This document shows positions 9,540 through 62,288 of a stretch of DNA of 64,000 nucleotides, piece after piece (within the stretch, counting starts at the first letter, position 1; each line of letters opens with the position of its first letter). Both the position numbers and the translations under genes were made by a program. The stretch lies in assembly GCF_014643735.1 (NCBI RefSeq), contig NZ_BMKA01000002.1, forward strand, positions 1,089,441-1,153,440, written 5' to 3'. The DNA comes from Neptunicoccus cionae (GTDB lineage Bacteria; Pseudomonadota; Alphaproteobacteria; Rhodobacterales; Rhodobacteraceae). The notes beneath the pieces are model-generated. The model was not told where the DNA came from and did no database searches. It saw nothing but the letters and a program-made list of their open reading frames with translations.

Positions 9540-10901
9540 TCAACTCTGTCCGGTCAGAACTGCCATTGGGGCGGTAAAGCACCACAACAGACCGTCCGCC
9601 GCAAACTCGCGCTGCGTTTCACCTGATGTGGTAGTTTCCAGCAAAAGGCCTGTCACTTGCGACCCGAACCCAGATCCAGTGGGTGGCGTGACGGGGGGAC
9701 CGCCGGTTTCATGCCAACACATTTTCAGATCAGGTTTTTCACCGCTGGTGATTTCCCATGACAGCTCTACCCTGCCGCTTTCTTGCGAGAGCGCGCCGTA
9801 TTTCGCAGCATTCGTCACCAGTTCGAAAATCGCCATACCCACCGCCTGCGAGACAGATTCGTCCAGATGCACAGTTGGACCGGAGAGGCTGGTCTGGGTG
9901 TCAGCTACGTCGACAAGATGGGTAAACTGGGCCCGCGCCAGCTCTTCAAGATCTACATAAACGCTGCCGCTATTAAGTAGAATATCCTGATTGGACGCCA
10001 GACTCCGCAGCCGGTTGGAAAAGATCGGGAGAAAAGCTTCCCCGTGATAGCGCCTGCCGGTCTGGCGGGCGATCACTTCGACGATGGTCAGCAGATTTTT
10101 CGAACGGTGATTGATTTCGTGAAGCAGGGTTTGGATTTTCTTTTCGGATTCTTTGCGCACCGTGATGTCACTGTACATGGTGACAAATCCGGTATGGGTC
10201 CGGTTTTCATCCCGAATGGCAGCAAAGCTGCGTTCTACGTTAATTTTCTGGCCGTTCTTGTGCAGCCTGAAGGACTCACTGCGCAAAACTTCCCCCGCTA
10301 TGACATCTGGAATACGCGCATCAAGGGCCGGCAATTCTTCGGCTGGCAGCAAAAGCTGATTGAACCGTTGGCCCAGTACTTCTTCTCTGGTGTAGCCGAA
10401 CAAACGCTCTGCGGCGGGGTTCCAGGCGTGGATTTTAAAGTCCTTATCAGACGATACAATCGCATGGGGTGAGGATTCCACGAGACTTCTGAACTCGTCG
10501 CTGTCCCGCCTCCGGTCCACCAGTTCCCGTTCAAAGGCTTGGCGTTGCTCGTTCTTGAAGATGCAGAAGTAGGCTTCGCTCAACTCGCCGTCTGTGCGAA
10601 CTGCACGCGCATTGACATAGACGCCGAAACGGGTGCCATCCGGTCTTTCCAAATCCAGCGATATTTCCGTGAACTCGCCTTCCAGCAAAAGGAGTGGGCG
10701 CAAATGGGTTTCAAAAAAAATGCGGCTTGCCCGTGTCAGGATGTCCACGACGCGGGTTTCCCCGTCGAGCGACACCTTATCCCGTTCCAACCAGGACCGC
10801 AGGGTTGCGTTCGTTGTGGTGATCACCCCGTCGCCGTTTATTACCATAAGACCACCGGGCCAGAGGTCCAGATCGGTGGGGGGGCGGATATTGTGGATCA
10901 T
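9540..10901 (-). CDS. PAS-PAS sensor histidine kinase (HWE/HisKA_2 group), partner of an RsbQ-like hydrolase
   Basis: A soluble 453-residue sensor kinase with no membrane segment. A first PAS-like domain covers about residues 10-120 and a second, clearer PAS about 133-250 (HAWNPAAERLFGYTREEVLG, then YSDITVRKESEKK). The phospho-acceptor is His 265 in HRSKNLL, and the ATPase domain has the N-box ELVTNAAKYGAL and the W-x-E motif as CWHETGG. W-x-E is a mark of HWE kinases, but the histidine that normally precedes ELVTN is Phe here. The start overlaps the hydrolase stop by four bases (ATGA), so both products should be made together. No response regulator gene is adjacent, so its target lies elsewhere. 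HWE kinases in alphaproteobacteria often act in light, redox or general stress signalling. Confidence 0.85.
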   Translation of the reverse strand: MIHNIRPPTDLDLWPGGLMVINGDGVITTTNATLRSWLERDKVSLDGETRVVDILTRASRIFFETHLRPLLLLEGEFTEISLDLERPDGTRFGVYVNARAVRTDGELSEAYFCIFKNEQRQAFERELVDRRRDSDEFRSLVESSPHAIVSSDKDFKIHAWNPAAERLFGYTREEVLGQRFNQLLLPAEELPALDARIPDVIAGEVLRSESFRLHKNGQKINVERSFAAIRDENRTHTGFVTMYSDITVRKESEKKIQTLLHEINHRSKNLLTIVEVIARQTGRRYHGEAFLPIFSNRLRSLASNQDILLNSGSVYVDLEELARAQFTHLVDVADTQTSLSGPTVHLDESVSQAVGMAIFELVTNAAKYGALSQESGRVELSWEITSGEKPDLKMCWHETGGPPVTPPTGSGFGSQVTGLLLETTTSGETQREFAADGLLWCFTAPMAVLTGQS

Positions 10902-11704
10902 TGCGCTGCGGTTGGCTGCAAAAAGGCCGAGATTGCGCGGGTGGTTTGGGCTGGAAAGCTCATGTGGGGGCAGTGGCCTGTCGCATCCAGCAGGACCTGT
11001 TCGCCCCGTTGCAGGTTTTCCTCAAGCCATGCACGCACCGTGTCTGGCACAAGGATGTCATCGCTGCACTGAAGCACCAGTGTGGGCTGCGCGACTTGCT
11101 TCACATCCTCACGGTGATCAGTCAAGAAGGTCACTTTGGCAAAGTGTTTCGCAATGTCGGGATCGGTCTGGCAAAAGCTCTCGGTAAGTTCTGCGCCCAG
11201 ATCGGGACGATCGGGCGTACCCATGATCGCAGGGGCCATATCGCTGGCCCAACCCAAATAATTGACCTCTAGTATGTCAAGCAGCCCAAGCAGGTCGCTT
11301 TCCTCAAACCCGCCGGAATAATCGCCGTCATTCATGTAGCTCGGGGAGGGGCAGATCATGACATTCTTTGCGATCAGATCGCGGCGGCGGTTTGCAGCCA
11401 AAGCGACAGTCATCGCGCTGACCGAGTGGCCGACTGCAATCACATCGCTTAGTTCGAGTTCGTCAAGAATATCTATCAAATCGTCCGCATGACCGTCTAG
11501 CGTGGCATATCGCGCGCGGTCGTAGTGCTCAATTGCAGACTGTCCATAGCCCATCAGATCGTAGGTGATGACTTTGAAACGGGACTCAAACGTGGGGGCC
11601 ATCTTGCGCCACATGCCGCTGTCACATCCATAACCGTGAAGAAAGATGATTGCGCTCTCGCCGGTGCCGGTCACTTTAACGGCGCAACGCTCAACTTTTG
11701 ACAT
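10898..11704 (-). CDS. RsbQ/KAI2/D14-like alpha/beta hydrolase coupled to a PAS kinase
   Basis: A 268-residue alpha/beta hydrolase closely resembling Bacillus RsbQ (269 residues) in length and motif order: FLHGYGCDSGMW, YDLMGYGQS, nucleophile Ser 94 in VGHSVSA, SPSYMNDGDYSGGFEE, the acid Asp 215/216 in LQCSDDI, and catalytic His 244 in ATGHCPHMS. RsbQ is required for the PAS-bearing phosphatase RsbP to sense energy stress, and plant homologues D14 and KAI2 are hormone receptors. Here the four-base overlap with the downstream PAS kinase argues that it generates or perceives a small ligand for that kinase. Start ATG 11704 has GGGAG five to six bases upstream; an in-frame upstream extension lacks homology. 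The ligand is unknown. Confidence 0.88.
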   Translation of the reverse strand: MSKVERCAVKVTGTGESAIIFLHGYGCDSGMWRKMAPTFESRFKVITYDLMGYGQSAIEHYDRARYATLDGHADDLIDILDELELSDVIAVGHSVSAMTVALAANRRRDLIAKNVMICPSPSYMNDGDYSGGFEESDLLGLLDILEVNYLGWASDMAPAIMGTPDRPDLGAELTESFCQTDPDIAKHFAKVTFLTDHREDVKQVAQPTLVLQCSDDILVPDTVRAWLEENLQRGEQVLLDATGHCPHMSFPAQTTRAISAFLQPTAAQ

Positions 11705-11945
11705 CTCACTCTCCCTTATTGGTCGTACAATTGATAAGTGATCGCATTTGGTCCCACCAGTCCGGTTGCATCTGACGACACAGGTCCACAATTGTTAAGC
11801 CTTCCCAATGCTCATCTTCCGATTGTGGGTGGCCAAGAGCGGTTTTCCGCCCGAATCTTTACCAGATTAGAAAAAAACTGTTGTGAATTTCAAGAATTAA
11901 CCTTGGCTCACGGTTTGTTGAAACGATACGGCGCGCTTCGCGTAA

Positions 11946-12815
11946 TCACCGGTTCAGAAGTTCCCAGAATTCAAGCGCTGGCCCGCGCAAGCTGTCCGGT
12001 TCCTGTTTGATCTTGCGCAACTCCCGCTGGCTTGGTGATTGTGCGGGCACGAAGAACTCTACCCCGTCGGGTTGGTTGCGCACAGCGTCGAAAGGCAGAA
12101 TGCTGGCGCCGAAACCGCGTCTGACAAAGGACAGAATGGCGGTGGTGTTGCGTGCTTCCAGTACACTGGCCACGCGCAGCGCCTCAACCGTTGGATCGTT
12201 TACCAGATCACACAACGGGTTAGAGATTAGCGGCTCAAGTTGCAGCAAGTCCCAGCCGGAGGCCCCTTGCGTGTCGGAATGGGCCCGATGGATGGCGCCG
12301 TCTTCGGCACAAACAATCCCAAGATCATCTGATAGGATACGAACGCCCTCTAACGGATCGCCGGGCCTTGCAGAGACAATACCGATGTCGGCCTCGTCGC
12401 GGTGCAGTCGCGCGCGCACAGCGGCACTGTCCACATCGCTGATTTCAATGCGTACTTGGGGTCGCATTTTTCGAAAGGCGTCGATCACATCTGGCAGCAG
12501 CGCCACGGTGGCTGAAGGCACGGCAGCAATGCGAACGATACCCGCGGTGGACAAGGCGTGCCGCCGGATCGCATCAACACTGTTGTCAAAGGCTTCGGTG
12601 GCGCGCCGGGCCTCGTCCAGCACCAGTTGGCCAAGGGGGGTCAGACGGCTTTTGCGGTCGGTTTCAAACAGGGGGGCGCCGACCTCTTGTTCGAACTGGG
12701 CCAGCATCATGGAAATGGCTGATGGCGTGCGGCCCAGCACGGCTGAGGCACCGGATAAAGTGCCTTGCGCGGCGACAGTTGCAAACGTGCGGAGCATCTC
12801 AAGTTTTACTGACAT
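11946..12815 (-). CDS. LysR-family regulator of the adjacent catabolic cluster
   Basis: A 289-residue LysR regulator. The N-terminal winged helix-turn-helix covers about residues 3-62 (FATVAAQGTLSGASAVLGRT, then AISMMLAQFEQEVGAPLFE), and the effector-binding domain follows from about 90. It is divergent from the aldehyde dehydrogenase gene with 90 bases between starts. That gap holds two copies of TTCA-N7-TGAA, a T-N11-A LysR box; the first overlaps its own start codon, which suggests autorepression. AGGAAAATTGA before ATG 12815 supplies the ribosome site. By position it should activate the cluster at 12906-19804 in response to that pathway's substrate or an intermediate. Confidence 0.9.
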   Translation of the reverse strand: MSVKLEMLRTFATVAAQGTLSGASAVLGRTPSAISMMLAQFEQEVGAPLFETDRKSRLTPLGQLVLDEARRATEAFDNSVDAIRRHALSTAGIVRIAAVPSATVALLPDVIDAFRKMRPQVRIEISDVDSAAVRARLHRDEADIGIVSARPGDPLEGVRILSDDLGIVCAEDGAIHRAHSDTQGASGWDLLQLEPLISNPLCDLVNDPTVEALRVASVLEARNTTAILSFVRRGFGASILPFDAVRNQPDGVEFFVPAQSPSQRELRKIKQEPDSLRGPALEFWELLNR

Positions 12816-12829
12816 TCAATTTTCCTGAA
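12815..12829. promoter_or_regulatory. LysR box copy 1 (TTCA-N7-TGAA)
   Basis: TTCAATTTTCCTGAA is a dyad with four-base arms that satisfies the T-N11-A rule for LysR operators. It overlaps the lysR start codon at 12813-12815, and its centre is 30 bases from the centre of copy 2, about three helical turns, so two dimers could bind on one face. Confidence 0.6.
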
Positions 12830-12844
12830 AGCAACTTCAATTTA

Positions 12845-12859
12845 TTCATAGTGACTGAA
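12845..12859. promoter_or_regulatory. LysR box copy 2 (TTCA-N7-TGAA)
   Basis: TTCATAGTGACTGAA repeats the same dyad as copy 1 with a different spacer sequence. It lies 46 bases upstream of the aldehyde dehydrogenase start, where an activation half-site next to the promoter would be expected. Confidence 0.6.
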
Positions 12860-12905
12860 ATCCCCCTGTGGGTCTAGACCAGAGCCAAGCAAATAGGAGA
12901 TTGTC

Positions 12906-14357
12906 ATGACTGATCGTACGCAACTTTATATTGATGGTTCCTGGACCGACGGGGCGAGCGAAATAGAAAACCGCAACCCTTCTGATACATCCGATTTGAT
13001 CGGCATGTATGCACAGGCGGATGCCGGACAGTTGGACGCAGCGCTTGCTGCGGCGCGTCGTGCCCAGCCCGCATGGTGGGTCGCTGGTATCCAGAAGCGT
13101 CATGATGTGCTGATGGCAATCGGTACAGAGCTGATGGCCCGCGCCGAAGAAATCGGCCGCATGTTGTCCCGCGAAGAAGGCAAACCGCTGGCTGAAGGCA
13201 AGGGCGAGGTTTACCGCGCCGGACAGTTCTTCACCTATTACGCCGCTGAATGCCTGCGCCAACATGGTGATCTGGCCGAAAGCGTGCGTCCCGGTATCGA
13301 AATCGACGTGCGCCGCGAAGCTGTCGGCGTGGTGGCGATCATTTCACCTTGGAATTTCCCAGTGGCAACGCCCGCATGGAAAATCGCCCCTGCGCTGGCA
13401 TTCGGCAATGCGGTTGTGTGGAAACCGGCCAATGTGACACCGGCCAGTGCCATAGCCCTTACCGAAATCATCGCCCGTCAGGACATCCCCAAAGGTCTGT
13501 TCAACCTTGTGGCCGGTCCGGGCCGCGATGTGGGCCAGCGTCTGGTGGAAGGCGGGCAGGTGGATGCGATCAGCTTCACCGGTTCGGTTCCCGTGGGCCG
13601 TGGCATTGCCGCTGCTGCTGTGCAGAATATGACCAAGGTTCAGATGGAAATGGGATCGAAGAATCCGCTGATCGTGATGGATGATGCGGACCTTGATCTT
13701 GCCGTGACCCATGCTGCGGGATCGGCCTTTGGCGGGACAGGGCAGAAATGCACTGCGGCCAGCCGCCTGATCGTTCACAGCAGCCTGCACGATGCGTTCG
13801 TTGAGAAACTGGTCGCAGCCGCAAAGGCACTGAAGGTCGGTCACGCGCTGGAAGACGGCACGCAAATCGGTCCTGTCGTCAGCGAAAGCCAGTTGAACCA
13901 GAACCTCGAATATATCGAAACCGGCAAGGGCGAAGGGGCAGAATTGCTCTGTGGTGGTGAGCGTCTGGAGATGGCGACGCAGGGCTACTATCAAGCGCCT
14001 GCGGTATTTGCCAACACCCGCAACGACATGCGGATCAACCGTGAAGAAATGTTCGGTCCAATTACCGCCGTGCAAAAGGTGGACAGCTACGAAGAGGCGC
14101 TGTCGGTTGCCAATGACAGCCAGTTCGGCCTGACCGCTGGTATCATGACAACTTCACTGGCCCGTGCCAGCCACTTCCGCGCCAACATGCGGGCGGGAAC
14201 CGTGATGGTGAACCTGCCAACAGCGGGCACCGATTACCACGTCCCCTTCGGCGGTCGTGGCGCGTCGAGCTTTGGTCCGCGCGAACAAGGCACCTATGCG
14301 GCCGAGTTCTACACCACTGTGAAAACGGCCTATGTTTCGGCCGGAGAGCCAGCATGA
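12906..14357 (+). CDS. NAD(P)-dependent aldehyde dehydrogenase (ketoglutarate/succinate semialdehyde dehydrogenase-like)
   Basis: Full-length aldehyde dehydrogenase, 483 residues. The cofactor-binding region has [19 protein letters not shown] and [11 protein letters not shown]; the general base Glu is in MEMGSKNP near residue 248 and the nucleophile Cys in [12 protein letters not shown] near 282. The GQKCTAxSR pattern resembles alpha-ketoglutarate semialdehyde dehydrogenases more than betaine aldehyde dehydrogenases. AGGAG precedes ATG 12906. It is the first gene of a LysR-controlled operon with an M19 homologue, a BCCT carrier, two conserved unknowns and RidA. The likely job is oxidation of a semialdehyde to a carboxylate late in catabolism of a zwitterionic nitrogen compound; the actual substrate is not known. 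Confidence 0.88.
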
Positions 14358-15340
14358 CCTATCTGATCGACGGTCTGCAATATGCTAACTGGTCAGAGAA
14401 GATCTTTCGCGAGATGCGGGCAGGGGGCGTGGATGCTGTCCACGTCACCATCACCTATCACGAAACATTCCGCGAAACGGTTCTGGTAATAGAACAATGG
14501 AACCGCTGGTTTGAACAGTTCCCCGACCTGATCTTTCAGGGCCGCACCGCAGACGATGTGCGCCGCGCCCGTGAAACCGGCCGCACGGCAATCTTCTTCG
14601 GATCGCAAAATCCGTCCTGCATCGAAGATGACATCGGATTGGTTGAGGTGCTGCACACGCTCGGCCTGCGGTTTATGCAACTGACGTACAACAACCAATC
14701 GCTGCTGGCCTCTGGCTGTTATGAGGACGAGGACACCGGTCTGACCCGCATGGGGCGTCAGGTGGTGGCCGAGATGAACCGTGTCGGTCTGGTGGTGGAC
14801 ATGAGCCATTCGGGTGAGCGGTCGACCTTTGAGGCGATTGAACACTCGTCCCGACCCATCACCATCAGCCATGCAAATCCTGCAAGCTGGCACGCCGCCC
14901 TGCGCAACAAATCCGATGATCTGCTGCGCGCGCTGGGCGAAAGCGGCGGGTTTCTGGGGCTGTCGATCTATCCCCACCATCTGAAAGACGGTGGCCAATG
15001 TTCGCTGCAATCATGGTGCGATATGGCAGCGCTGGCGGTTGATCTGGTGGGCGCAGGGCAGGTCGGGATTGGCACGGATCTGTGTCAGGACCAGCCTGAC
15101 AGTATCGTTGAATGGATGCGGGTCGGACGCTGGACCAAGGCCATCGACTATGGCGAGGGCAGCGCGGATAACGCCGGTTTCCCGCCCATGCCTGTCTGGT
15201 TCCATGACAACCGCGATCTGGCAGGTATCCGCGCCGGTTTGCGGGCCGCAGGACTGGACGAGGCCACAACAGACGGGGTGATGGGCGACAGCTGGTACGC
15301 CTTTTTTGATACAAGCTTCGGGGTGCAATCCGTCCCTTAA
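14354..15340 (+). CDS. atypical M19 (membrane dipeptidase) family amidohydrolase
   Basis: A 328-residue member of the M19 renal dipeptidase family, lacking a signal peptide. The second-metal ligands are kept: His in VDMSHSG and His in ITISHANPAS, and the Asp in GIGTD. The first-metal site is not: where the family has DGHND near the N terminus this protein reads IDGLQYANW, and where it has the bridging Glu in IEGGH it reads GSQNPS. So the canonical two-zinc site cannot form as in the dipeptidases. It may bind one metal and hydrolyse a cyclic amide or lactam, or have another function. Its start overlaps the aldehyde dehydrogenase stop by four bases, linking it to the same pathway. Confidence 0.8.
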   Translation: MTYLIDGLQYANWSEKIFREMRAGGVDAVHVTITYHETFRETVLVIEQWNRWFEQFPDLIFQGRTADDVRRARETGRTAIFFGSQNPSCIEDDIGLVEVLHTLGLRFMQLTYNNQSLLASGCYEDEDTGLTRMGRQVVAEMNRVGLVVDMSHSGERSTFEAIEHSSRPITISHANPASWHAALRNKSDDLLRALGESGGFLGLSIYPHHLKDGGQCSLQSWCDMAALAVDLVGAGQVGIGTDLCQDQPDSIVEWMRVGRWTKAIDYGEGSADNAGFPPMPVWFHDNRDLAGIRAGLRAAGLDEATTDGVMGDSWYAFFDTSFGVQSVP

Positions 15341-15394
15341 GACAATTATTTCGCGGCCAGCAGGCCATGTGCAATCGCTTTGTGGAGGACTATG

Positions 15395-16960
15395 ATGAGC
15401 GATATAAACAGAACAACAGGCCAGCCAACCGGCCGGATAGACAAGGCGCTTTTCGCCATCACGGGAGGGTTCATCGCGCTGTTTTGCGCCTATGCTTTCT
15501 TTAATATCGACGGGCTGTCCGCGCTGGTAGACAGCAGCTTTGCCTTCTCGGCCAAGTATTTCGGGCTCTACTGGCAGATCCTTCTTCTGGCGACCTTTCT
15601 GATCGGTCTGGTGCTTTGCGTGTTGCCAGGATCAAAGACGGTCATGGGTGGTTTGACCCTGCCGGAGTTCAGCAGCTTTAGCTGGGGGTCCATGATCATG
15701 TGTACCCTGCTTGCAGGTGGCGGCGTGTTCTGGGCTGCCGGTGAGCCGATTGCCCATTTCCTGTCCACACCGCCCCTGTTTGGCGATCTGAGCGGTGACA
15801 CAGAGGCCCGCGCCAACGTAGCGCTCGCCCAGAGCTTTCTGCACTGGGGCTTTCTGGCTTGGGCGATCCTCGGGTCGCTGACCACTGTGATGCTGATGCA
15901 TTACCACTATGACAAAGGTCTGCCGCTGGCACCGCGTACCCTGCTGTACCCAGTCTTTAAAGAGCGTGCCTTGCATGGCCCAATCGGCCTGATTGCCGAT
16001 GCGTCCTGTGTGATTGCGGTTGTGGCGGGCACAGTCGGGCCGATCGGGTTTCTGGGGCTGCAACTGTCCTACGGCCTGAACGAGCTGACCGGCATTCCGG
16101 ATAATTTCGCCACCCAATCCATCGCCATTCTGTCACTGGTTGCGATCTATACGGTCTCTGCGATCACGGGGTTGGCCAAGGGCATCAGACTGTTGTCGCA
16201 GATTAACGTGATCCTTGCTGTATTCCTGTTGGCATTCATGCTGATTGCTGGCCCGACCACAGAGATTTTCGCCGGTTTCTTTGGCGGTATGCAGGTCTAT
16301 GTGACCCATTTCTTTGATCTGACCTTGTATCGCGGTGATGCCGGACTGTTCGGGGATGCGGGCTGGCTTGGCTGGTGGACTGTGTTTTTCTGGGGCTGGT
16401 TCATGGGATATGGTCCGCTGATGGCGATTTTTATTGCCCGTATCAGCCGCGGTCGCTCTATCCGTCAAATCATCCTGACCCTGTCAGTCATGGCGCCGCT
16501 GATCACGAACTTTTGGTTCACAATCATCGGCGGCTCCGGCATCTTCTTTGAGATCGCAGAACCTGGTGTCATCTCCGGCCCGTTTGAAGGCTTCAACCTG
16601 CCTGCCGGACTGTTGGCGATTACCCAAGCGATGCCAATGGGAATGATCCTGTCGGTTCTGTTTCTGGTGCTAACCATGTGTTTCGTGGCTACGACCAGCG
16701 ACTCCATGAGCTATGTGATCTCGACCACTATGTCAGACGGGGAGCCGTCCAGCGCGATGCGGGCCTTTTGGGGGCTGGCGATGGGCGTGATGGCACTGAT
16801 CCTGATCTCGACAGGGTCGGGGGGTATCGGCAAGCTGCAAAGTTTCATTGTTGTAACGGCTGTGCCTGTGTCCCTTCTGCTGCTACCGTCATTGTGGGAC
16901 GCGCTGCGGATCACGTGGATGCTGGGGCGCAAAACGAAGGCCGCCGCCGCGCAAGCTTAG
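15395..16960 (+). CDS. BCCT-family transporter for a betaine-like solute
   Basis: A 521-residue carrier with twelve predicted membrane helices in the betaine/choline/carnitine transporter family. Family features include FSWGSMIMCTLLAGGGVFWA and FIARISRGRSIRQ. The usual tryptophan-box motif with WISWAPF is replaced by GWFMGYGPL, so the substrate is probably not glycine betaine itself. I choose ATG 15395 because GGAGG at 15384-15388 is then six bases upstream, against three bases for ATG 15392. It lacks the long C-terminal tail of osmosensing members such as BetP, which fits a nutrient importer. The gene follows the M19 homologue in the same orientation after 54 bases. Confidence 0.88.
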   Translation: MSDINRTTGQPTGRIDKALFAITGGFIALFCAYAFFNIDGLSALVDSSFAFSAKYFGLYWQILLLATFLIGLVLCVLPGSKTVMGGLTLPEFSSFSWGSMIMCTLLAGGGVFWAAGEPIAHFLSTPPLFGDLSGDTEARANVALAQSFLHWGFLAWAILGSLTTVMLMHYHYDKGLPLAPRTLLYPVFKERALHGPIGLIADASCVIAVVAGTVGPIGFLGLQLSYGLNELTGIPDNFATQSIAILSLVAIYTVSAITGLAKGIRLLSQINVILAVFLLAFMLIAGPTTEIFAGFFGGMQVYVTHFFDLTLYRGDAGLFGDAGWLGWWTVFFWGWFMGYGPLMAIFIARISRGRSIRQIILTLSVMAPLITNFWFTIIGGSGIFFEIAEPGVISGPFEGFNLPAGLLAITQAMPMGMILSVLFLVLTMCFVATTSDSMSYVISTTMSDGEPSSAMRAFWGLAMGVMALILISTGSGGIGKLQSFIVVTAVPVSLLLLPSLWDALRITWMLGRKTKAAAAQA

Positions 16961-17026
16961 ACTAAATGGTATGGCGCAGGCACGCGCCATACCCTCACCG
17001 AATTTGTGACGTAGGGGGGAAACACG

Positions 17027-18703
17027 ATGTCAGTTATTACACCGATGAACACACCGGACGTGGCCCGCTTCATGCGCCCTGCCGCAGAAGTGATGCGTCT
17101 GGCGCGGATGGGATGTGGCCACCCGACACGGTTGTCTTTCCTGCGCGTGATGCTGCGTCGCCTGAAATGCGCTGACTGGCAGATCGACCGTCCGGTCTGG
17201 AATGTGGATGCCAAAGGCGTTGGCCACGGCGTTTACCGCGTCCGCAGCGCAGATCGCAGCTACAGCCTTGTGGCGTTCGCCCATGACCTGCCGCCCGAAA
17301 TGCGGTCGGACAGGGTGATCGCCACCGCTTGGGATGCAACCTTCGCCCTGTTTGACGGAGAGCCAAGCGCGGAAGATATTGCACGGCTGGCTGAAAATGT
17401 CCCCTATCAGGAAGCCGGTCGCGTCACGTCAAAAGAGCTGACGCTCGCCCGCGCCAACCGTTCCGTGCGTCTGTTTAACCATGTGGTTGAGGCACTTTCA
17501 GAAGGTCTCCAGCCCGATCCGGCGGAAATCCGATCCGTGGGCTATCTGATGCGCACAACCGCAGTCTATGGTTCTGGAAAATTCGGCGCATCTGATCGGA
17601 GTTATATCGCAGAGCGCCCCGAACTCGCAGCGCCGTTTCAGGTAGAGATGCTGACCGTTTGGCTGATCCGCGCCTTCACGGTGGATATCGTCGAACACAT
17701 TGCGGCTGCAAAAGGCGGGGCGCAGGCGGTGAAACTTGCGCAGGAAACCCGCCGTAGCCTTGGTGTGGGAAACTCCACCGGGCTTGGTATGGCCCCGTTT
17801 ATCGTGCGCCATCCCGTGCTGCTGAACAACTGGATGATGGCCCGCGAAGAAGCACTGGCGCGGGTGCGGGCGCAGGGAATTGCTGACCCGCAGGCGGTTC
17901 ACGGGCTGACCAGCGCACTGCACTGCGCAATAGAAAATGCCAAAATATGGCAGTCCGAACACCCCGTGCAAAAGGGCAAACTGGAAGAATTGCGCCGCGA
18001 TCTGGGCGTGCTGGAAGACGGTCTCGGGACTTGGGACTGGTCGGTAGAACTGCCTTGGAATGCACTCTGGTTGTGGGGGGCTGCGACGCTCGGCCTTGAA
18101 GGGCAAGAGGCACTTTTGTCTTTGATGCTCGAACCCCATGGCGCATTGATCGACGATCTGGCGAACCACATGGGTGCGGATGAAGCGGCAAGTTTTCATA
18201 TCAACGGCGCCATGTCGGTAGCCAAGCTGCGCGATATTATCGAAACCGATTACGGCTGGGCGCTCAAGATCGACTTTACCACCCCTGAAAACGTGGCGCG
18301 GTTCTGGTATGTCTCCGAAGAAAAACTTGAACCCCGACTGGGCGAACGCGCCACTGAAGAAGGCGCAACACTGGAACAACCGTTGTGTATCGCCCGATTG
18401 ATTTCCGAACTTTATGACACGGTCAAAAATTACGACGCAGCCAAACCGGTGGCAGCTTTGTTGTTGTCCCATCCGGACCATCGCTATGCCGTCCGGCGCG
18501 CCCAGATTGCGCTATCCCATCCTTATGCAGAGGTGCAGGACAACCTGATCGCAGCCGATATGCTGCCAATTGACCTGCTGCGCTGCAAGCTGGCGTTTTT
18601 CGGGGCGAGCCAGTTCGATCCCCGGTCTGACAGATGGGTGCGGATCAACCTGTTTGCGGGCGCCCCTTTCCCCGACGAAATCAAAGAGGAGGCCAGCGCA
18701 TGA
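17027..18703 (+). CDS. conserved protein of unknown function (558 aa) in the BCCT/RidA cluster
   Basis: I do not recognise a characterised family. The protein has no signal peptide and no membrane helix. It is rich in Ala, Arg and Trp, with a helix-dominated C-terminal half. Conserved-looking patches include CGHPTRLSFLRVML near residue 30, YRVRSADRSYSLVAF near 70, YGSGKFGASDRSYI near 185 and a His/Asn-rich IVRHPVLLNNWMM near 265. AGGGGGGAAACACG gives a strong ribosome site for ATG 17027. Its stop overlaps the DUF3726 start by four bases, so the two are probably subunits or consecutive enzymes. Placement between a betaine-type carrier and RidA suggests an enzyme acting on the imported compound; that is inference. 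Confidence 0.8.
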   Translation: MSVITPMNTPDVARFMRPAAEVMRLARMGCGHPTRLSFLRVMLRRLKCADWQIDRPVWNVDAKGVGHGVYRVRSADRSYSLVAFAHDLPPEMRSDRVIATAWDATFALFDGEPSAEDIARLAENVPYQEAGRVTSKELTLARANRSVRLFNHVVEALSEGLQPDPAEIRSVGYLMRTTAVYGSGKFGASDRSYIAERPELAAPFQVEMLTVWLIRAFTVDIVEHIAAAKGGAQAVKLAQETRRSLGVGNSTGLGMAPFIVRHPVLLNNWMMAREEALARVRAQGIADPQAVHGLTSALHCAIENAKIWQSEHPVQKGKLEELRRDLGVLEDGLGTWDWSVELPWNALWLWGAATLGLEGQEALLSLMLEPHGALIDDLANHMGADEAASFHINGAMSVAKLRDIIETDYGWALKIDFTTPENVARFWYVSEEKLEPRLGERATEEGATLEQPLCIARLISELYDTVKNYDAAKPVAALLLSHPDHRYAVRRAQIALSHPYAEVQDNLIAADMLPIDLLRCKLAFFGASQFDPRSDRWVRINLFAGAPFPDEIKEEASA

Positions 18704-19425
18704 GTGTCGATCCCCACGACCAGACCCGCGGCGAAACCGCCCCGCAGTTCGCAGACAGCGAACATGCGCCCCTGTCTTGCAACGAGGCCGCCGCGCTGTG
18801 CACAAAAGCCGCCCGAGGCGTCGGAATGAGCTGGGGCATGGCCGAAGAAGCAGGTTTCGCTGCCTCGTGGTTGGTGTCCCACGGTATCGACGGCCCGACC
18901 CAGTTGCGCAGCCATCTGGAGCAGGCTGACGGGTTGGAGTGGGAAGACCTCTGCCCCGCAGTTACGCCCGGTGCATGGCAGAATGCGAAAGGGCAGGCGG
19001 CCTGCCCGATCATTCTTGGCGCGACGCTGTGTGACTATGCGGATCTGCCGGAAGGGCCAGCGCCGGACTGCGAGATTTCTCTGGGTACGGTTAATTCTCC
19101 GATCCTTCTGGTGCCGTTCCTGTCCGAGCTTGGCCGTAAAAACGACCTGTCGTTTATGCTATGCTGGGACGGAGGGCAATTGCGCATCGACGGAACGGAA
19201 ACATGGCTCAGCGCGGCGGAAAAATCCTTAAGCGTTGCGAAACTTGCGCTGACTCTCGCCGTGGATAGCACGCCCTGTCACCAACCGTGCCCAAACGAAA
19301 CGCCCAACGCCCAAACCACCGCTGCAACCGTTGCAGCACTGGCGAATTTTGCCATGCGCACCACTGTGCCAGCCACAGAAGAGTCGCGCGCTGGCGCCGG
19401 ATCAACCCTCAGTGACAATGATTAA
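18700..19425 (+). CDS. DUF3726 family protein
   Basis: A 241-residue protein whose N-terminal part (LSCNEAAALCTKAARGVGMSWGMAEEAGFAASWL, about residues 24-58) matches my recollection of DUF3726 proteins. The middle contains NSPILLVPFLSELGR, and the C-terminal 40 residues are low complexity (Thr/Ala-rich). The start ATG 18700 overlaps the upstream stop (ATGA) and AGAGGAGG lies just before it. Coupling to the 558-residue unknown and co-occurrence with RidA argue that it is a part of the same enzyme system. No biochemical function is known to me. Confidence 0.72.
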   Translation: MSVDPHDQTRGETAPQFADSEHAPLSCNEAAALCTKAARGVGMSWGMAEEAGFAASWLVSHGIDGPTQLRSHLEQADGLEWEDLCPAVTPGAWQNAKGQAACPIILGATLCDYADLPEGPAPDCEISLGTVNSPILLVPFLSELGRKNDLSFMLCWDGGQLRIDGTETWLSAAEKSLSVAKLALTLAVDSTPCHQPCPNETPNAQTTAATVAALANFAMRTTVPATEESRAGAGSTLSDND

Positions 19426-19438
19426 TAAAGGACCTGTC

Positions 19439-19804
19439 ATGACACTCTCCCGCCTCAACCCCGGCCCCCGTATGAGCCAAGCCGTCACCATCGGAAACAT
19501 CGCGTTTCTGGCTGGGCAGGTGCCCGACGATCTGACCGCGGACATTACAACCCAAACCCGTCAAGTGCTGGCGAAACTGGATAAAGTTGTAGCCGATCTT
19601 GGCGCATCAAAGGCCGATATCGCATCCGTGCAAGTCTGGTTGGCCAATATGGAAGACTTTCAGGGCATGAATGCTGTCTGGGACGAATGGGTTTCAGCCG
19701 AAGCCCCGCCTGCACGGGCCACAGGCGGCACATCCCTCGCCCGCCCCGGCATGCGCGTCGAAATGATCGCCGTCGTAGCCCTGCCAGACGCTATGGCAGC
19801 CTAA
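19439..19804 (+). CDS. ridA: RidA family enamine/imine deaminase
   Basis: A 121-residue RidA/YjgF-type protein. Family marks are GNIAFLAGQVPDD, the middle VWLANMEDFQGMNAVWDEW and the catalytic arginine in PPARATGG, followed by VEMIAVVALP. RidA proteins hydrolyse reactive enamine/imine intermediates to ketones and ammonia. AAAGGA precedes ATG 19439, 13 bases after the DUF3726 stop, and a strong terminator follows, so this is the last gene of the operon. Its presence implies that the pathway makes an unstable enamine or imine, for example from an amine oxidation or dehydration step. It is probably pathway-specific instead of the housekeeping copy. Confidence 0.9.
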   Translation: MTLSRLNPGPRMSQAVTIGNIAFLAGQVPDDLTADITTQTRQVLAKLDKVVADLGASKADIASVQVWLANMEDFQGMNAVWDEWVSAEAPPARATGGTSLARPGMRVEMIAVVALPDAMAA

Positions 19805-19812: not shown

Positions 19813-19851
19813 AAAAAGCCGGAGCAGCAAAATCCGCTGCTCCGGCTTTTT
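19813..19851 (+). terminator. strong intrinsic terminator after ridA
   Basis: AAAAAGCCGGAGCAGC (19813-19828) pairs perfectly with GCTGCTCCGGCTTTTT (19836-19851) around a seven-base loop. The 3' arm ends in five T. Its last base coincides with the complement of the encoded CCA end of the tRNA on the other strand, so one hairpin ends the operon right at the tRNA 3' terminus. Confidence 0.92.
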
Positions 19852-19927
19852 GGTGACCCCGGCAGGATTCGAACCTGCAACCTGCCCCTTAGGAGGGGGC
19901 TGCTCTATCCAGTTGAGCCACGGGGCC
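19851..19927 (-). tRNA. tRNA-Arg (anticodon CCU), CCA encoded
   Basis: Read on the minus strand, the acceptor stem GGCCCCG pairs with CGGGGTC, the D arm is GCTC...GAGC, the anticodon stem GCCCC/GGGGC encloses the loop CTCCTAA with anticodon CCT, and the T arm is GCAGG-TTCGAAT-CCTGC. The discriminator A is followed by a genomic CCA. This reads AGG codons. The gene is complete and 77 bases long including CCA. Confidence 0.96.
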
Positions 19928-24046: not shown

Positions 24047-25465
24047 TTATGGGAGTATGTCGCTCAGCCGGAGAAGGGCGATCCGTTCTACCTGCTTGCA
24101 AGCCGTTGCCAGTTCTGTGTCGCGGTCGTTGTGGATACGGGTTTTAAAGGCTGTCAGGATATCGTCCTTGGTCAGCCCCTTCACCGCAATGATGAACGGA
24201 AAGCCGAATTTTCCGGTGTATTCCTTGTTAAGCGCCTGAAAGGTTTCCCGTTCCTCATCCGTCAGCGCGTCCAACCCTGCCGAAGCCTGCTCTGATGTGC
24301 TCTCTGCGGTCAGTTGTTTGGCAGCGGCCAGCTTGCCCGCCAGATCGGGGTGCGCTTGCAAGACGCCAAGGCGCAGTTCGTCACTGGCACTGCGGAACAC
24401 ACGGCAGAGGGCAGAATGCAAGCCAATGGCGGTGTTGTGGGCGGGGCCAAGTTCCAGCCCGTGCGCGCCTTCAGCGATCCAGGGGGAGTGTTCAAAGATG
24501 CTGCCGTAGTGGGACACGAATGTGTCTTTGTCCATTTCGGTGGGGACTGTTTCGGCGTGGACAGGGGGGTGGTTTTCTTGCCAGTGTCGCGCGATGTCGA
24601 TGCGCCTTGCGTACCAGACGTCCTGCTTGGCTTTGACATACTCCACAAAGCGTTTGAGGGACTGGATGCGACCGGGCCGTCCAATCAGCCGACAATGCAG
24701 GCCGATGCTCATCATCTTCGGCGCGCCCGCTTCGCCTTCGGCATAAAGCGCGTCGAAACTGTCTTTGAGATAGGTGAAGAACTGGTCGCCCGAATTGAAC
24801 CCCTGCGCAGAAGCAAATCGCATGTCGTTGGCATCAAGCGTGTAGGGAATGATCAGTTGGTCACGCCCCTGATGTTCGCGCCAGTAAGGCAGATCGTCAT
24901 CATAGGTATCCGAACAATACTCAAACCCGCCTTCTTCGGACACGATATCCACGGTATTTGCCGAACAGCGCCCCGTATACCAGCCGCGGGGACGTTCGCC
25001 GGTGACTTCGGTGTGAAGGCGGACGGCCTCTTCCAGATCGGCCCGTTCCGACTCCTTTTCGTAATCCTTGTATTCGATCCATTTCAATCCGTGGGAGGCG
25101 ATCTCCCAGTCTGCGGATTGCATGGCTGCAACTTGATGCGGGGAACGCGCCAATGCGGTGGCGACGCCGTAGATGGTGACTGGAATATCCGCTCCGGTGA
25201 ACAAGCGGTGCAGCCGCCAGAAACCGGCGCGGGCGCCATATTCATACATGCTTTCCATGTTCCAGTGGCGCTGTCCCGGCCACGGTTGCGCGCCGACCAC
25301 TTCGGACAGGAAGGCCTCGGAGGCCGCATCACCGTGCAGCAGGCAGTTTTCGCCGCCTTCTTCATAGTTCATCACGAATTGAACCGCGATTTTGGCGTTG
25401 TTCGGCCAGTTTGCGGCAGGCGGATTAGGGCCGTAGCCCTGCATATTGCGTGGATATCGGTTCAT
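24047..25465 (-). CDS. puuE: bifunctional allantoinase (PuuE) - OHCU decarboxylase (UraD)
   Basis: A 472-residue fusion of two ureide enzymes. Residues about 1-305 are the polysaccharide-deacetylase-type allantoinase PuuE (FVMNYEEGGENCLLHGD, then SADWEIASHGLKW and GLHCRLIGRPGR). Residues about 315-472 are 2-oxo-4-hydroxy-4-carboxy-5-ureidoimidazoline decarboxylase, with LGVLQAHPDLAGKLA and the active-site FGFPFIIAVKG. The second domain completes uric acid conversion to S-allantoin and the first opens allantoin to allantoate. Hydroxyisourate hydrolase, the enzyme acting just before the decarboxylase, is divergent next door. No urate oxidase gene is visible in the window. Confidence 0.92.
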   Translation of the reverse strand: MNRYPRNMQGYGPNPPAANWPNNAKIAVQFVMNYEEGGENCLLHGDAASEAFLSEVVGAQPWPGQRHWNMESMYEYGARAGFWRLHRLFTGADIPVTIYGVATALARSPHQVAAMQSADWEIASHGLKWIEYKDYEKESERADLEEAVRLHTEVTGERPRGWYTGRCSANTVDIVSEEGGFEYCSDTYDDDLPYWREHQGRDQLIIPYTLDANDMRFASAQGFNSGDQFFTYLKDSFDALYAEGEAGAPKMMSIGLHCRLIGRPGRIQSLKRFVEYVKAKQDVWYARRIDIARHWQENHPPVHAETVPTEMDKDTFVSHYGSIFEHSPWIAEGAHGLELGPAHNTAIGLHSALCRVFRSASDELRLGVLQAHPDLAGKLAAAKQLTAESTSEQASAGLDALTDEERETFQALNKEYTGKFGFPFIIAVKGLTKDDILTAFKTRIHNDRDTELATACKQVERIALLRLSDILP

Positions 25466-35547: not shown

Positions 35548-36333
35548 TCAGGCGGCATTGTGGTAATCTGGTAAGATCATCAGGGGGCTTTCGCCTGTTT
35601 TTTGGACAGAAATGGGTGTGGCATAGACCTCTGACAGGGTTTGTGCGGTGAAAACCTCTCCTACCTTGCCGGAGCTTGCCACCCTCCCGTTTCGCATAAG
35701 ACAGATCGAATCGGCAAAGGCGGCGGCGAGGTTCAGATCATGCAGCACCACCAGCACGCCAGCCCCGCTGCGCGCCATAGTGCGCGCGGTCTTCATCACC
35801 TCGATCTGGTGAAGAATATCAAGGCTTGCGGTGGGCTCGTCCAGAAACAGATACCCTGGTCCAAACAGGTTGCGATTGGCTGTCAGCTGCGCCAGAACAC
35901 GCGCGAGATGGGCGCGGTGCCTCTGTCCGCCGGACAGGTTTGGTACCGGAGTATCCGCAAAAAGCTCCAGTCCCAGTAGCGCAATGACCTTTGCGACAAG
36001 AACCTGCGTGTCTGTGGGGGGGTATTCGATCGGGATCGACAGGCGGACCACTTCGGCAACGCTGAATGCTGCCGAAAGGGTCGGGGATTGTTCCAGCACA
36101 GCGCGGTGGCGGGACAGGTCTGCTGCATCCATGTGGCGCAGTTCTGTGTTGCCGTAGTGGATTTCTCCCCGCGCTGTCGGTACATCCCCGACCAGCGCCG
36201 ATAGCAACGTTGATTTTCCCGCTCCGTTAGGCCCGCATAGCGCGACCAGTTTGCCAAAAGGTACGTCCACATCCACACCGCGCAGGATGGTCTTTGGCCC
36301 GAAGGCCACGTCGATATTGCGTCCTGTGATCAT
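35548..36333 (-). CDS. hmuV: haem ABC importer ATP-binding protein
   Basis: A 261-residue ABC ATPase of the HmuV/BhuV type. Walker A is GPNGAGKST near residue 34, the signature NLSGGQRHRAHLARVLAQL near 135 and Walker B YLFLDEPTASLD. The QRHRAHLARVL piece resembles haem ATPases more than siderophore FecE-type ones. It powers haem passage through HmuU. Its start overlaps the hmuU stop by four bases. Confidence 0.92.
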   Translation of the reverse strand: MITGRNIDVAFGPKTILRGVDVDVPFGKLVALCGPNGAGKSTLLSALVGDVPTARGEIHYGNTELRHMDAADLSRHRAVLEQSPTLSAAFSVAEVVRLSIPIEYPPTDTQVLVAKVIALLGLELFADTPVPNLSGGQRHRAHLARVLAQLTANRNLFGPGYLFLDEPTASLDILHQIEVMKTARTMARSGAGVLVVLHDLNLAAAFADSICLMRNGRVASSGKVGEVFTAQTLSEVYATPISVQKTGESPLMILPDYHNAA

Positions 36334-37379
36334 AATTTACCTGTCCGCAGCAGAAGGTACAAAAAGAACGGCCCGCCGATCAGCGATGTGGCCAATCCGA
36401 TGGGCAGTTCCTGTGGTGGCGCAACGTTGCGCACGATCAGGTCGGCCCCCAGTAACAATACCGCCCCTGTTAAGGCTGAGGCTGGCAGCAACGCGCGGTG
36501 GGCGCCCCCGACCAACATGCGGGCGATATGGGGTGCGACCAGCCCGATAAAACCGATTGGTCCGGCAATCGACACACCGGCCCCAACGGCCAGCGCACAA
36601 ATTCCGCAGGCGGTAAATTTAATCCGCATCACATCAAGACCGGAATGAAAGGCCGCCCGCTCGCCCAGTTGAAACAAGTCCAGCGCTCGGGTGAAGCGCA
36701 GCAGGGCAAGGCTACTGACCGCCATAATCGCAACGCTGATCAGCACAGCCAACCAACCGGATTTGGCAAGGCTGCCCATTGACCAGAACGTCAGGTCCCG
36801 CAGTTGGGTATCGGTGGAAATATAGGTCAGGAACCCGATGCCAGCCCCGGCAATGGAATTGATCGCAACCCCCACAAGGATCAGCCGCCCGACAGACATC
36901 TCGCCGTTTTTCTTGGAAAGGCCAAGGATCAGCGCTGTGACCAGCAGCGCACCGAAGAAGGCAGCAACCGGCAGAAGGTAGGGGCGCAAGGCGGCGGGAA
37001 GTTCGCCGATAAACAAATCACCAAGCACGATAACGATCACAACCGCCGCAGAGGCACCGCCAGAGATCCCGATCAGACCGGGATCTGCCAGCGGATTGCG
37101 CAAAAGCCCTTGCAGCACCGCGCCACACATCGCCAGCGACAAGCCGACCCCCAGTCCCAGCACCATACGCGGCGCGCGAATTTGGGTGACAATCGCAGTT
37201 GGCATCGGGTCGGCTTGGCCTGTCACGGTGTCGATCATCTCAGACAGCGACAGGGGCACCGGCCCGATTGCGATTTCTGCCAACGCGATGACAATCACCG
37301 CGCAGACCAGTCCGACAAAAACGGTTTGTTGCCGGCTCAGGGTCCGGACCTTGCGGGGGGATGTCTCGGCGAGGGTCAC
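36330..37379 (-). CDS. hmuU: haem ABC importer permease (FecCD family)
   Basis: A 349-residue permease with about ten membrane helices in the FecCD/BtuC family. Family parts are LRNPLADPGLIGISGGASAA, FWSMGSLA and GFIGLVAPHIARMLVG, the last forming the ATPase-coupling region. It is two to four bases from its neighbours on both sides, so hmuTUV is translated as a unit. Confidence 0.92.
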   Translation of the reverse strand: MTLAETSPRKVRTLSRQQTVFVGLVCAVIVIALAEIAIGPVPLSLSEMIDTVTGQADPMPTAIVTQIRAPRMVLGLGVGLSLAMCGAVLQGLLRNPLADPGLIGISGGASAAVVIVIVLGDLFIGELPAALRPYLLPVAAFFGALLVTALILGLSKKNGEMSVGRLILVGVAINSIAGAGIGFLTYISTDTQLRDLTFWSMGSLAKSGWLAVLISVAIMAVSSLALLRFTRALDLFQLGERAAFHSGLDVMRIKFTACGICALAVGAGVSIAGPIGFIGLVAPHIARMLVGGAHRALLPASALTGAVLLLGADLIVRNVAPPQELPIGLATSLIGGPFFLYLLLRTGKL

Positions 37380-37382
37380 GGC

Positions 37383-38231
37383 TTACTTCCCGATTGGATG
37401 CAGGTGGTTCATCAATTCTGCAACCGCTTCCGCAGTGCGCGGCCCGAAGCCGAGCAGCTTCATGCCGTCCATCTTAACCAGATTGCCCGCTTTGCCCGCC
37501 GTCGTCTGCTGTACATCGGGACGGTTCATGACCTTGTCGTCCCCTCCGATGTTGTCCGCATGAACGCCCGACATCAGAATGAAATCCGGATTGGCAGCGA
37601 TCAGGGCCTCTGCGTTCATGGGTTTCCAACCCGCAAAGGCTGCGGCTGCGTTTGTGCCGCCTGCCAGTTCAATGATGTCACTGGCAGAGGTTTCCTGCCC
37701 GCCCACCAATGGGGCCCCATCCCTGAGCGAAAGAATAAAAAGCACTTTGGGGCGATGCTCCAGCGCATCGACGCGGGCCTTCAGCTTTGCCATGTCCGCT
37801 GTGTATTGCGTGATCAGCGCATCGGCCTGATCACGCAGTCCCAAAGTTTCGCCAACAAAGCGCATCTTTGCAGGCACCCGATCTGCCCCCTGCCCAAGCG
37901 GGGCGAGCGCCACAGCTAGGCCCGCAGATTTCAGCGTGTCGATCACATTGGGGGGACCGGCATCATCCGCACCGATCAGAAGGTCCGGCGACAGGGAAAG
38001 GACACCCTCGGCGGAGAGCGCACGGACATAGCCGATCTGCGCTTTGGTCTTTGTATTCGCTGGAAAGCCCGAAGTGCTGTCGACTGCGACGATCCGGTCT
38101 CCTGCACCAAGGGCGTAGATGATTTCAGTTATGTCGCCACCGGCAACGGCGATCCGTTCGTAGTTTTGCGACAGTGCCGCCGTGGTGGTCGTCAGACATA
38201 AGGCAGCGGCAAGCGTGAGGGATTTCAGCAT
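37383..38231 (-). CDS. hmuT: periplasmic haem-binding protein
   Basis: A 282-residue periplasmic binding protein. Signal peptide about residues 1-20 (LTLAAALCLTTTTAALS). The start of the mature protein is ERIAVAGGDITEIIYALGAGDRIVAVDSTSG, the type III binding fold typical of haem carriers, with Tyr in QIGYVRALSAEG as the likely haem ligand. ATG 38231 lies one base after the hmuS stop; longer in-frame extensions would include no signal peptide. Confidence 0.92.
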   Translation of the reverse strand: MLKSLTLAAALCLTTTTAALSQNYERIAVAGGDITEIIYALGAGDRIVAVDSTSGFPANTKTKAQIGYVRALSAEGVLSLSPDLLIGADDAGPPNVIDTLKSAGLAVALAPLGQGADRVPAKMRFVGETLGLRDQADALITQYTADMAKLKARVDALEHRPKVLFILSLRDGAPLVGGQETSASDIIELAGGTNAAAAFAGWKPMNAEALIAANPDFILMSGVHADNIGGDDKVMNRPDVQQTTAGKAGNLVKMDGMKLLGFGPRTAEAVAELMNHLHPIGK

Positions 38232-38232
38232 G

Positions 38233-39288
38233 TTACGCGCGTCCCAGACCGTTAAGAATGCTCCGCCATCCTTCAAGTTCCGCGTTACCTTCGCCCCGTT
38301 CGCCGAACATGAGAAAAAAGCTCTGGCCGTTTTTATCAAAGGCTTCAAGTGAGGTGACGATCCCGTCCTTAGAGGGTTTGCGCACGATCCATGCGTGGGC
38401 CACATGGTCCTGTCGCAGGTGCATGTGGAACTTTTTGTCTAGCACGTTAATCCAAGGCCCCATCGCCTTAATGTTCTCGATCTCGCCGGTGTGAATCTGG
38501 ATGCACCCAGAGTTTCCGATAAACACCATTACCGGCAGTTTTGCTTCGGCGGCGCGCTCCAGCGCCCAAGTTACGGCCTCATTTGGAACGCGGTAAGCCA
38601 TATCCTCGCCCACCAAACGCAGGGCTTGCATTCGGCCCACTTTGTGTTTTTTCAGCATGCCAAAGAACTGGTGCACATCGGTCATGGCGTCCCAGTCTGC
38701 GCGCAAGGCGGCTGTGTCCACATCACTGTCTGCCCCGTCAACAGGGGCGGGATCAGCGATTTGCGTTTTGATCTTGGCGGGCGTATCGTCGATCCAACCC
38801 TCCACCAGCGCGTCGAATTTGGCGCGGTCGGTGTTCTCGGTCGGATAGATTTTGTGAACCGCACGACCGGATTTATCAAAGAACTGTAAGGAAACTCGCA
38901 GGCCGGAGCTGACTTCTTCTTCGATCACATATCCAAAGGCCCAGCGGTTCATGAAAATCCGCAGGTCGATGGTGCGGTTTAAGACCAGCCCCATCACCTT
39001 ACCGATTTTCACATTGTCGAATTCCCCATAGCGTTCATGCACGGCGTGTTCATTGCGGGTCAGACACATGACTTCGCCAAGGCCCACCATGCCTTCAAGC
39101 AGTGCGGCAAACCCGCGGGTGTCGTCGCGGCGCAAGCGTTTTGCTGCGCCGCTGACCTGTTTGGCCTCTACCAATTCCGCTTCGCTGATGCCCAGTTCCC
39201 GTGCCGCATCAACAGCGCGCATCGCGCCCTTTTCTTGCGTCAGGCTCTGAAAGCTTTGGAACGTTTCGGTTACAGTTTGGTCCAGCAT
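38233..39288 (-). CDS. hmuS: haem-handling / haem-degrading factor HmuS
   Basis: A 351-residue HmuS/ChuS-type protein with two related halves: residues about 20-170 and 195-345. Matching pieces are EVMCLTRNEHAVHERYGEF in the first half and VMVFIGNSGCIQIHTGEIENI in the second. Relatives bind haem in the cytoplasm and release iron, by oxidative or reductive opening of the ring. GGAGA precedes ATG 39288. It lies between the receptor and hmuT in the same operon. Confidence 0.92.
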   Translation of the reverse strand: MLDQTVTETFQSFQSLTQEKGAMRAVDAARELGISEAELVEAKQVSGAAKRLRRDDTRGFAALLEGMVGLGEVMCLTRNEHAVHERYGEFDNVKIGKVMGLVLNRTIDLRIFMNRWAFGYVIEEEVSSGLRVSLQFFDKSGRAVHKIYPTENTDRAKFDALVEGWIDDTPAKIKTQIADPAPVDGADSDVDTAALRADWDAMTDVHQFFGMLKKHKVGRMQALRLVGEDMAYRVPNEAVTWALERAAEAKLPVMVFIGNSGCIQIHTGEIENIKAMGPWINVLDKKFHMHLRQDHVAHAWIVRKPSKDGIVTSLEAFDKNGQSFFLMFGERGEGNAELEGWRSILNGLGRA

Positions 39289-39301
39289 AGCGGTCTCCGG
39301 T

Positions 39302-41311: not shown

Positions 41312-41419
41312 GATCCATTCCCTCTCGCGTTTTTTGTTGTTCACTTCCTAACGCGAGTCGGGTGGCTACTTTGGACTGTGTATTTAGATTCTTAGTGTTT
41401 TTGTCAACTAATGAATTTT

Positions 41420-52356: not shown

Positions 52357-52462
52357 AATGGTGTATCCGGCGTTTCTGGGGTGGCTGCGCTTTGGGGCGG
52401 TGTCTTGGCTTACAGTATGAAACTCTCTGGCTGATGTAAAAAGAAAATACCAAGTTCACAAA

Positions 52463-52494: not shown

Positions 52495-52503
52495 GGAGAA
52501 TCC

Positions 52504-55163: not shown

Positions 55164-55197
55164 ATACACTCACTTCACAAATTTCAGGGAGAAAAAG

Positions 55198-62285: not shown

Positions 62286-62288
62286 AGC

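Follow-up and report, generated by a model that had tools for sequence, protein, structure and literature searches.

We read a gene cluster at positions 11946–19804 of a stretch of Neptunicoccus cionae DNA (64,000 nucleotides of contig NZ_BMKA01000002.1; the whole stretch is called the window below) as a substrate-induced operon that would import and break down an N-methylated cyclic zwitterion, the most likely substrate being homarine (N-methylpicolinate) or a close analogue. Its operon family comes in two forms: one that ends in an Ldh_2 enzyme (the Ldh exit) and would be the published homarine operon, and one with a RidA exit, to which the cluster would belong. We give this reading about an even chance of being right. 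In the proposed scheme, a LysR-type regulator would sense the compound and a BCCT transporter, clear in its family and putative in its substrate, would import it. A protein of 558 amino acids (U558) and a DUF3726 protein would add water and open the ring, an M19-like protein would cleave a C-N bond of the opened product, and an aldehyde dehydrogenase (ALDH; again clear in family and putative in substrate) would turn a semialdehyde into the acid, which leaves a 2-imino (enamine) acid. An imine reductase would convert this product to N-methylglutamate in the Ldh-type relatives, and N-methylglutamate dehydrogenase (Mgd) would then form glutamate, whereas in the window the RidA protein would hydrolyse the imino acid to a 2-oxo acid and free methylamine.

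Balances drawn up by hand without oxygen give homarine + 3 H2O = N-methylglutamate + CH2O for the first route and homarine + 4 H2O = 2-oxoglutarate + methylamine + CH2O + 2 H for the second. Both accommodate one ALDH step, with or without the Ldh step; with formate as a product, an extra oxidation would be needed. The fate assigned to ring carbon 6 in these balances is a guess. A six-carbon alternative, in which ring hydrolysis gives 2-(methylamino)muconate semialdehyde for ALDH and then RidA, fits RidA but not N-methylglutamate.

The published homarine operon is said to give N-methylglutamate and glutamate from homarine, and it reportedly bears the name homABCDER in the 2026 work (Nat Microbiol 2026, 11:1531). 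The Ldh form has five structural genes and a LysR gene, the same number as in that name; this is no more than suggestive. Citing 2026 work, PMC13390433 states that Mgd takes part in homarine catabolism, and homarine was drawn down to ≤2% within 10 h by Ruegeria pomeroyi, according to PMC12817926. The earlier note on this DNA had proposed uptake and breakdown of a betaine-like compound, with homarine as one guess. A BCCT or betaine-type ABC carrier fits the former, and Mgd-like operons beside some Ldh-type relatives, together with the report on Mgd (PMC13390433), speak for the latter, although in both cases the substrate itself is not shown by sequence. A homarine pathway appeared in print in 2026 (cited in PMC13390433), so that the note's term "uncharacterised" may no longer apply to the cluster.

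Conservation of the gene set

The gene set is conserved beyond chance, because the same genes recur together in relatives, and the core ALDH-M19-U558-DUF3726 is found together and in this order in the window and its relatives. A search for U558 in a collection of species genomes returned 426 pattern matches, 403 of which are relatives, and the best 80 were kept, some of these loci being cut by contig ends. Families found in the 80 were M19 (65), ALDH (61), DUF3726 (61), LysR (55), BCCT (42) and RidA (42). A second set of 147 loci, freed of near-duplicates and with enough flank on both sides, is not a random sample, and its gene counts are lower limits set by sequence thresholds; here M19 lies near U558 in 138 loci, DUF3726 in 109, ALDH in 97 and BCCT in 57. 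Part of the loci discussed below were hand-picked from match lists and are likewise non-random. The genes are thus not scattered in relatives; scattering was the finding on which the earlier note would have had its reading abandoned. In some loci a ProXWV/choline-type (glycine-betaine-type) ABC transporter replaces the BCCT protein.

Among the best 80 of the 403 relatives, the nearest copy is that of Neptunicoccus sediminis (L017), with identities of 97% for ALDH, 95% for M19 and 85% for U558. A U558 profile run against whole genomes matched 46 of the 100 sampled from the family of L017, 53 of 385 from the class of a Hoeflea (L078) and 16 of 369 from the class of a Granulosicoccus (L059). It also matched 19 of 52 genomes of the small phylum to which Deltaproteobacteria bacterium UBA6967 (L077) belongs; that this phylum is SAR324 is a guess. 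In the genus of Ruegeria sediminis (L045), 52 of 54 genomes carry U558. Four loci of the UBA6967 phylum (L178, L180, L181, L193) have M19-U558-DUF3726 followed by genes for a phosphoribosyltransferase, GMP reductase and an M24/creatinase-family protein. L178 and L180 also have a PhyH gene upstream, and ABC transporter genes occur in some of the four.

U558 was present in 168 plasmid records, and nine regions around it were viewed. In Pseudomonas sp. MPC6 (L223) the cluster lies on pMPC6-328K, a plasmid typed as conjugative, with U558-DUF3726 on the strand opposite to RidA-BCCT-M19-ALDH. A deeper U558 branch of six loci (L154, L156, L158, L159, L165, L208) has a short follower gene of 172–214 amino acids and M19 in five of the six; most lack a close ALDH and transporter gene, and the branch is possibly a third form. 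Four very distant relatives (L205, L206, L207, L220) include an M19-family gene in three cases and ABC transporter genes in two. The last of these is Sinorhizobium meliloti 1021 pSymB 388183–407820, where U558 identity is ~31% and the place is unannotated in the collection used.

Proteins of the operon

All six structural genes lie on the + strand. The first (12906–14357) matches Pfam Aldedh; its best NCBIfam models, alpha-ketoglutaric semialdehyde dehydrogenase and 2,5-dioxovalerate dehydrogenase, both stay under their cut-offs. The second (14354–15340) encodes an M19-like metallohydrolase of the 2i5g type, which matches Pfam Peptidase_M19 with an E-value of 2.3e-67, the match beginning only at profile position 34. 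That match would suit an ordinary dipeptidase in an operon that uses a peptide-like betaine. However, L-Q-Y stands at the place of the HxD motif (placed by motif) in 41 of 41 aligned members, including the window's, and Gln replaces the Glu of the GAEG motif of 3id7 in all 41, while both later His residues and the Asp are retained throughout. We take HxD, Glu, His, His and Asp to be the ligands of the dinuclear zinc site, and with these changes a dipeptidase becomes very improbable. The observed replacements point rather to a hydrolase with a reduced metal site, and C-N cleavage would be its predicted reaction.

The nearest solved structure to this protein is by far 2i5g (E = 8.9e-59; the next has 7.5e-23), which we take to be PA5396 of Pseudomonas aeruginosa, from a pepD-hypothetical-dgcAB cluster. 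The M19-unknown pair of the window could accordingly be the counterpart of the pepD-hypothetical pair that precedes dgcAB in Pseudomonas and Vibrio, and the operon would then break down glycine betaine or dimethylglycine. In Vibrio natriegens a predicted dipeptidase gene and a hypothetical gene do precede dgcAB_fixAB in a cluster with a BCCT gene, as described in PMC12093977. Against this, a Pfam and NCBIfam scan of the eight proteins of 10898–19804 found no demethylase, Rieske oxygenase or DgcAB family, and the BCCT protein (15395–16960; Pfam BCCT) has an altered aromatic box. The glycine-betaine box listed in PMC12093977 consists of Trp, Trp and Tyr in transmembrane segment 4 (TM4) and Trp, Trp and Trp in TM8; the window protein reads HWGFLAWAIL and FWGWFMGYGP, with Leu for Tyr and with Phe and Tyr for the second and third TM8 Trp, and so fails the box at three of its six residues. 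These three changed positions, as placed by alignment, are invariant in 36 of 36 aligned proteins. On this evidence we consider glycine betaine or dimethylglycine breakdown improbable.

U558 (17027–18703) belongs to a family that bears no Pfam or NCBIfam name; it had no match in either database at an E-value of 0.001, and a fold comparison returned none. The DUF3726 protein (18700–19425; Pfam DUF3726) is predicted to share its fold with the Ldh_2 enzymes and resembles a cut-down version of them (241 as against 313–361 amino acids; 8–14% identity). This relation is visible by structure comparison only, the hhalign probability of 0.3% for the sequence profiles being not significant, and our literature search found no paper containing the term DUF3726. 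A profile comparison of U558 with DUF3726 detected no relation. The two genes are fused in Mesorhizobium and in two further loci (L022 and L051), and because of these observed fusions the two proteins probably act together.

The composition of the cluster also bears on trigonelline, which the earlier note had named beside homarine. Trigonelline is an aromatic betaine, and R. pomeroyi grows better on it than on homarine, according to PMC8269262. The same paper has the trigonelline ring opened by the oxygenase TgnA/TgnB, but neither this nor any other known oxygenase family was found among the eight proteins scanned, although U558 belongs to no named family. Breakdown of trigonelline is hence the less likely of the two guesses, and we hold it to be very unlikely.

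The last gene (19439–19804) encodes a RidA-family protein of the enamine/imine deaminase type (Pfam Ribonuc_L-PSP, E = 4.1e-25). An alignment to 9bk1 shows that the Arg of the PAR motif (PARAT), presumably the catalytic residue, is kept. The nearest solved structures are 9bk1 (PSPTO_0102) and 3k12; the muconate deaminase 6izh follows far behind (E = 7.7e-8).

Two proposed exits and a suggested link to Mgd

The Ldh form has the layout LysR / ALDH-M19-(BCCT)-U558-DUF3726-Ldh_2. All 20 loci fetched from the genus of Ruegeria sediminis, which were hand-picked, carry ALDH-M19-U558-DUF3726-Ldh in the same places. Across the 147 loci, the last enzyme is Ldh only in 49, RidA only in 37, both in two and neither in 59; for the 89 loci with ALDH, M19 and DUF3726 the corresponding numbers are 35, 37, 2 and 15. 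In plain counts the two enzymes exclude each other (p = 1.4e-6). On a U558 tree the two labels change at least 11 times. This was a quick tree of 156 rows with many weak forks. Rows sharing a label were thinned at 85% identity, and contig-cut loci in which neither Ldh nor RidA was seen were excluded before counting, as were near-identical sequences and those with stops. On this tree the smallest starred group that contains the window, itself of the RidA form, holds four RidA rows and one labelled "none". The Ldh_2 protein of Ruegeria sp. TM1040 has delta1-piperideine-2-carboxylate reductase (1wtj) as its nearest solved relative (E = 4.8e-53; the next has 2.2e-38). Because 1wtj is an imine reductase, the intermediates used by Ldh_2 and by RidA could be of one kind, and the pattern suggests that bacteria have exchanged the end enzyme of one pathway.

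The two forms might also share their chemistry and differ in substrate, the Ldh form using homarine and the RidA form another cyclic N-methyl betaine of the pyridinium or pyrrolidinium type. Phaeobacter inhibens DSM 17395 carries a RidA-type cluster and a second U558 place on the same record, pPGA1_262, which would suggest different jobs. The window ALDH is 72–76% identical to those of the 20 Ldh-type Ruegeria-genus loci, and its U558 54–56% to those of TM1040, Aliiroseovarius crassostreae and P. inhibens P88; moreover, Ldh-type loci often lack an orthologous BCCT gene, several having none or one that is only 28–30% identical to the window's. On the other hand, the labels mix on the U558 tree, to which exchange within one pathway is the better fit, and where the BCCT protein is orthologous its box is identical in the Ldh-type TM1040 and P88 and in the RidA-type W027 and the window. 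A separate substrate for the RidA form is therefore a possibility that we take seriously without favouring it.

For the reading as a homarine-type operon, the neighbours of some Ldh-type clusters are suggestive. In TM1040 and A. crassostreae S202 the cluster adjoins four genes annotated as sarcosine oxidase and an AraC/GlxA-type (TmaR-like) regulator gene; in P88 the alpha and gamma subunits are encoded beside it, within the stretch seen, together with the regulator. By similarity, the alpha subunit and the regulator also flank the Ldh-type cluster in L033 and L075, and coordinates place the alpha subunit on the U558 contig, within ~8 kb, in G083 and G591. One alpha-subunit relative, in Aminobacter (56.6% identity), sits beside type III glutamine-synthetase-like and glutamate-synthase-like genes, and another, in Paracoccus yeei (65.5%), has a dimethylamine monooxygenase and a GlxA-type regulator encoded next to it. 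The latter neighbourhood resembles the dmm, tmaR, mgdABCD layout of R. pomeroyi given in PMC13390433. Since the relatives of the alpha subunit keep such company, the operons annotated as sarcosine oxidase are most likely N-methylglutamate dehydrogenases.

If only the Ldh form makes N-methylglutamate, its genomes should need Mgd, unlike those of the RidA type. This prediction was dropped: a first sample gave 25 of 25 as against 12 of 25, and the difference faded with two further samples. In that first sample, 19 of the 25 Ldh-type genomes came from the genus of Ruegeria sediminis. The genome counts given below pool four samples, from which four genomes with both enzymes and three with none were dropped and in which L007 is not included; partial matches (G835, G710, G004, G1012, G1004) were scored by identity alone, and the line of 52% identity for the alpha subunit was chosen after the spread of values had been seen.

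Several points weigh against the homarine reading. That the Ldh form is the published homarine operon is our own assumption, made from general fit. When kinship is taken into account, Ldh and RidA no longer exclude each other significantly (sign test on 13 independent pairs; median p = 0.25). Six more picked loci of the Ruegeria sediminis genus were less uniform than the 20: L249 is Ldh-type, L247 and L248 are RidA-type, and L250–L252 are divergent second copies in which no partners were detected. Of the Ldh-type genomes, 43 of 53 have the alpha subunit at ≥52% identity, as do 29 of 47 of the RidA type (p = 0.044); without the Ruegeria loci L227–L248 the counts become 24 of 34 and 27 of 45 (p = 0.35). 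Counted at ≥60% identity in 146 loci with a wide upstream flank, the alpha subunit lies near U558 in only 4 of 48 loci of the Ldh type and in none of the 39 of the RidA type, and L017, the window's closest relative, lacks it at ≥52% (best 47%). The Ldh-Mgd link is thus suggested by some neighbourhoods and not by distribution. For U558 an oxygenase activity of a novel type is conceivable, and other substrates could be meant where relatives adjoin M24/creatinase-family or dimethylsulfoniopropionate-demethylation genes. The uneven presence of an orthologous BCCT gene in the Ldh form and the poorer growth of R. pomeroyi on homarine, both given above, count in the same direction.

A bolder proposal, which we regard as doubtful, is that U558 makes up a new type of enzyme together with DUF3726, the latter a re-used Ldh_2 scaffold, and that this enzyme opens the ring of N-methylpyridinium betaines by adding water, needing neither oxygen nor a redox cofactor; the reductive exit (Ldh_2, N-methylglutamate) would have been swapped repeatedly for a hydrolytic one (RidA, free methylamine), and RidA-type strains would release methylamine from marine pyridinium betaines, a source so far unrecognised.

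Layout, neighbouring genes and known systems

Seven open reading frames were verified, each with an ATG start and an in-frame stop. They bear out six same-direction genes with two overlapping junctions and a divergent LysR gene, as first described. The overlaps, ALDH/M19 and U558/DUF3726, are of 4 nucleotides each, and the remaining gaps measure 54 (M19-BCCT), 66 (BCCT-U558) and 13 nucleotides (DUF3726-RidA). The regulator gene (11946–12815, − strand; Pfam HTH_1 and LysR_substrate) is divergent from the operon across a stretch of 90 nucleotides (12816–12905), the presumed promoter/operator by its layout. A consensus promoter scan gave 4 sites as against 4.5 in shuffled sequence and none in this gap; control of the operon by the LysR protein, which the earlier note had asserted, is hence inferred from the layout, of which the divergent arrangement stands. 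A strong hairpin (19813–19851), which bears U tracts on either strand, folds with −29.9 kcal/mol on the + strand (z −6.4) and −31.5 on the − strand (z −6.2). Because it sits between the operon and a convergent tRNA-Arg(CCT) gene (19851–19927, − strand), it is probably a terminator common to both.

Beside the LysR gene, a PAS/HWE histidine kinase gene overlaps an alpha/beta hydrolase gene (9540–11704), a sensor-hydrolase-like pair. Further away, a single open reading frame (24047–25465) joins polysaccharide-deacetylase-type and OHCU decarboxylase domains, as in purine breakdown. Two other regions were read partly by translation: at 35548–42322 a TonB receptor gene stands among ABC permease/ATPase, binding-protein and haem-utilisation-like genes, which reads as haem uptake, and at 52462–63743 glutamine-synthetase-like and arginase-family genes stand among those for an FAD oxidoreductase, a polyamine-type ABC transporter, a class III aminotransferase and ALDH-like proteins, which reads as polyamine use.

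If the homarine reading is right, the operon family would mark the turnover of a homarine-type substrate, and its last gene would predict the exit of nitrogen, as N-methylglutamate/glutamate with Ldh_2 and as free methylamine with RidA. It would also hint at the structure of DUF3726 and propose, for the unnamed U558 family, a role that can be tested.

Some known systems can be set beside the cluster. The window RidA is of the same family as the 2-aminomuconate deaminase/RidA enzymes and keeps their PAR Arg, and is closer to 9bk1 and 3k12 than to 6izh. The pepD-hypothetical-dgcAB-fixAB clusters of Pseudomonas and Vibrio are like the window in pairing a predicted dipeptidase with an unknown protein near a BCCT gene; they differ in that the window lacks the dgcAB family and that U558 has no Pfam family. 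The homarine operon would fit in outline, the Ldh-type relatives having five structural genes and a regulator in one order, with an Mgd-like operon adjoining in some. Compared with these relatives, the window has RidA in place of Ldh_2, a BCCT gene inside the operon and no Mgd-like gene within its 64 kb, and it shares with them the ALDH, M19, U558, DUF3726 and LysR genes.

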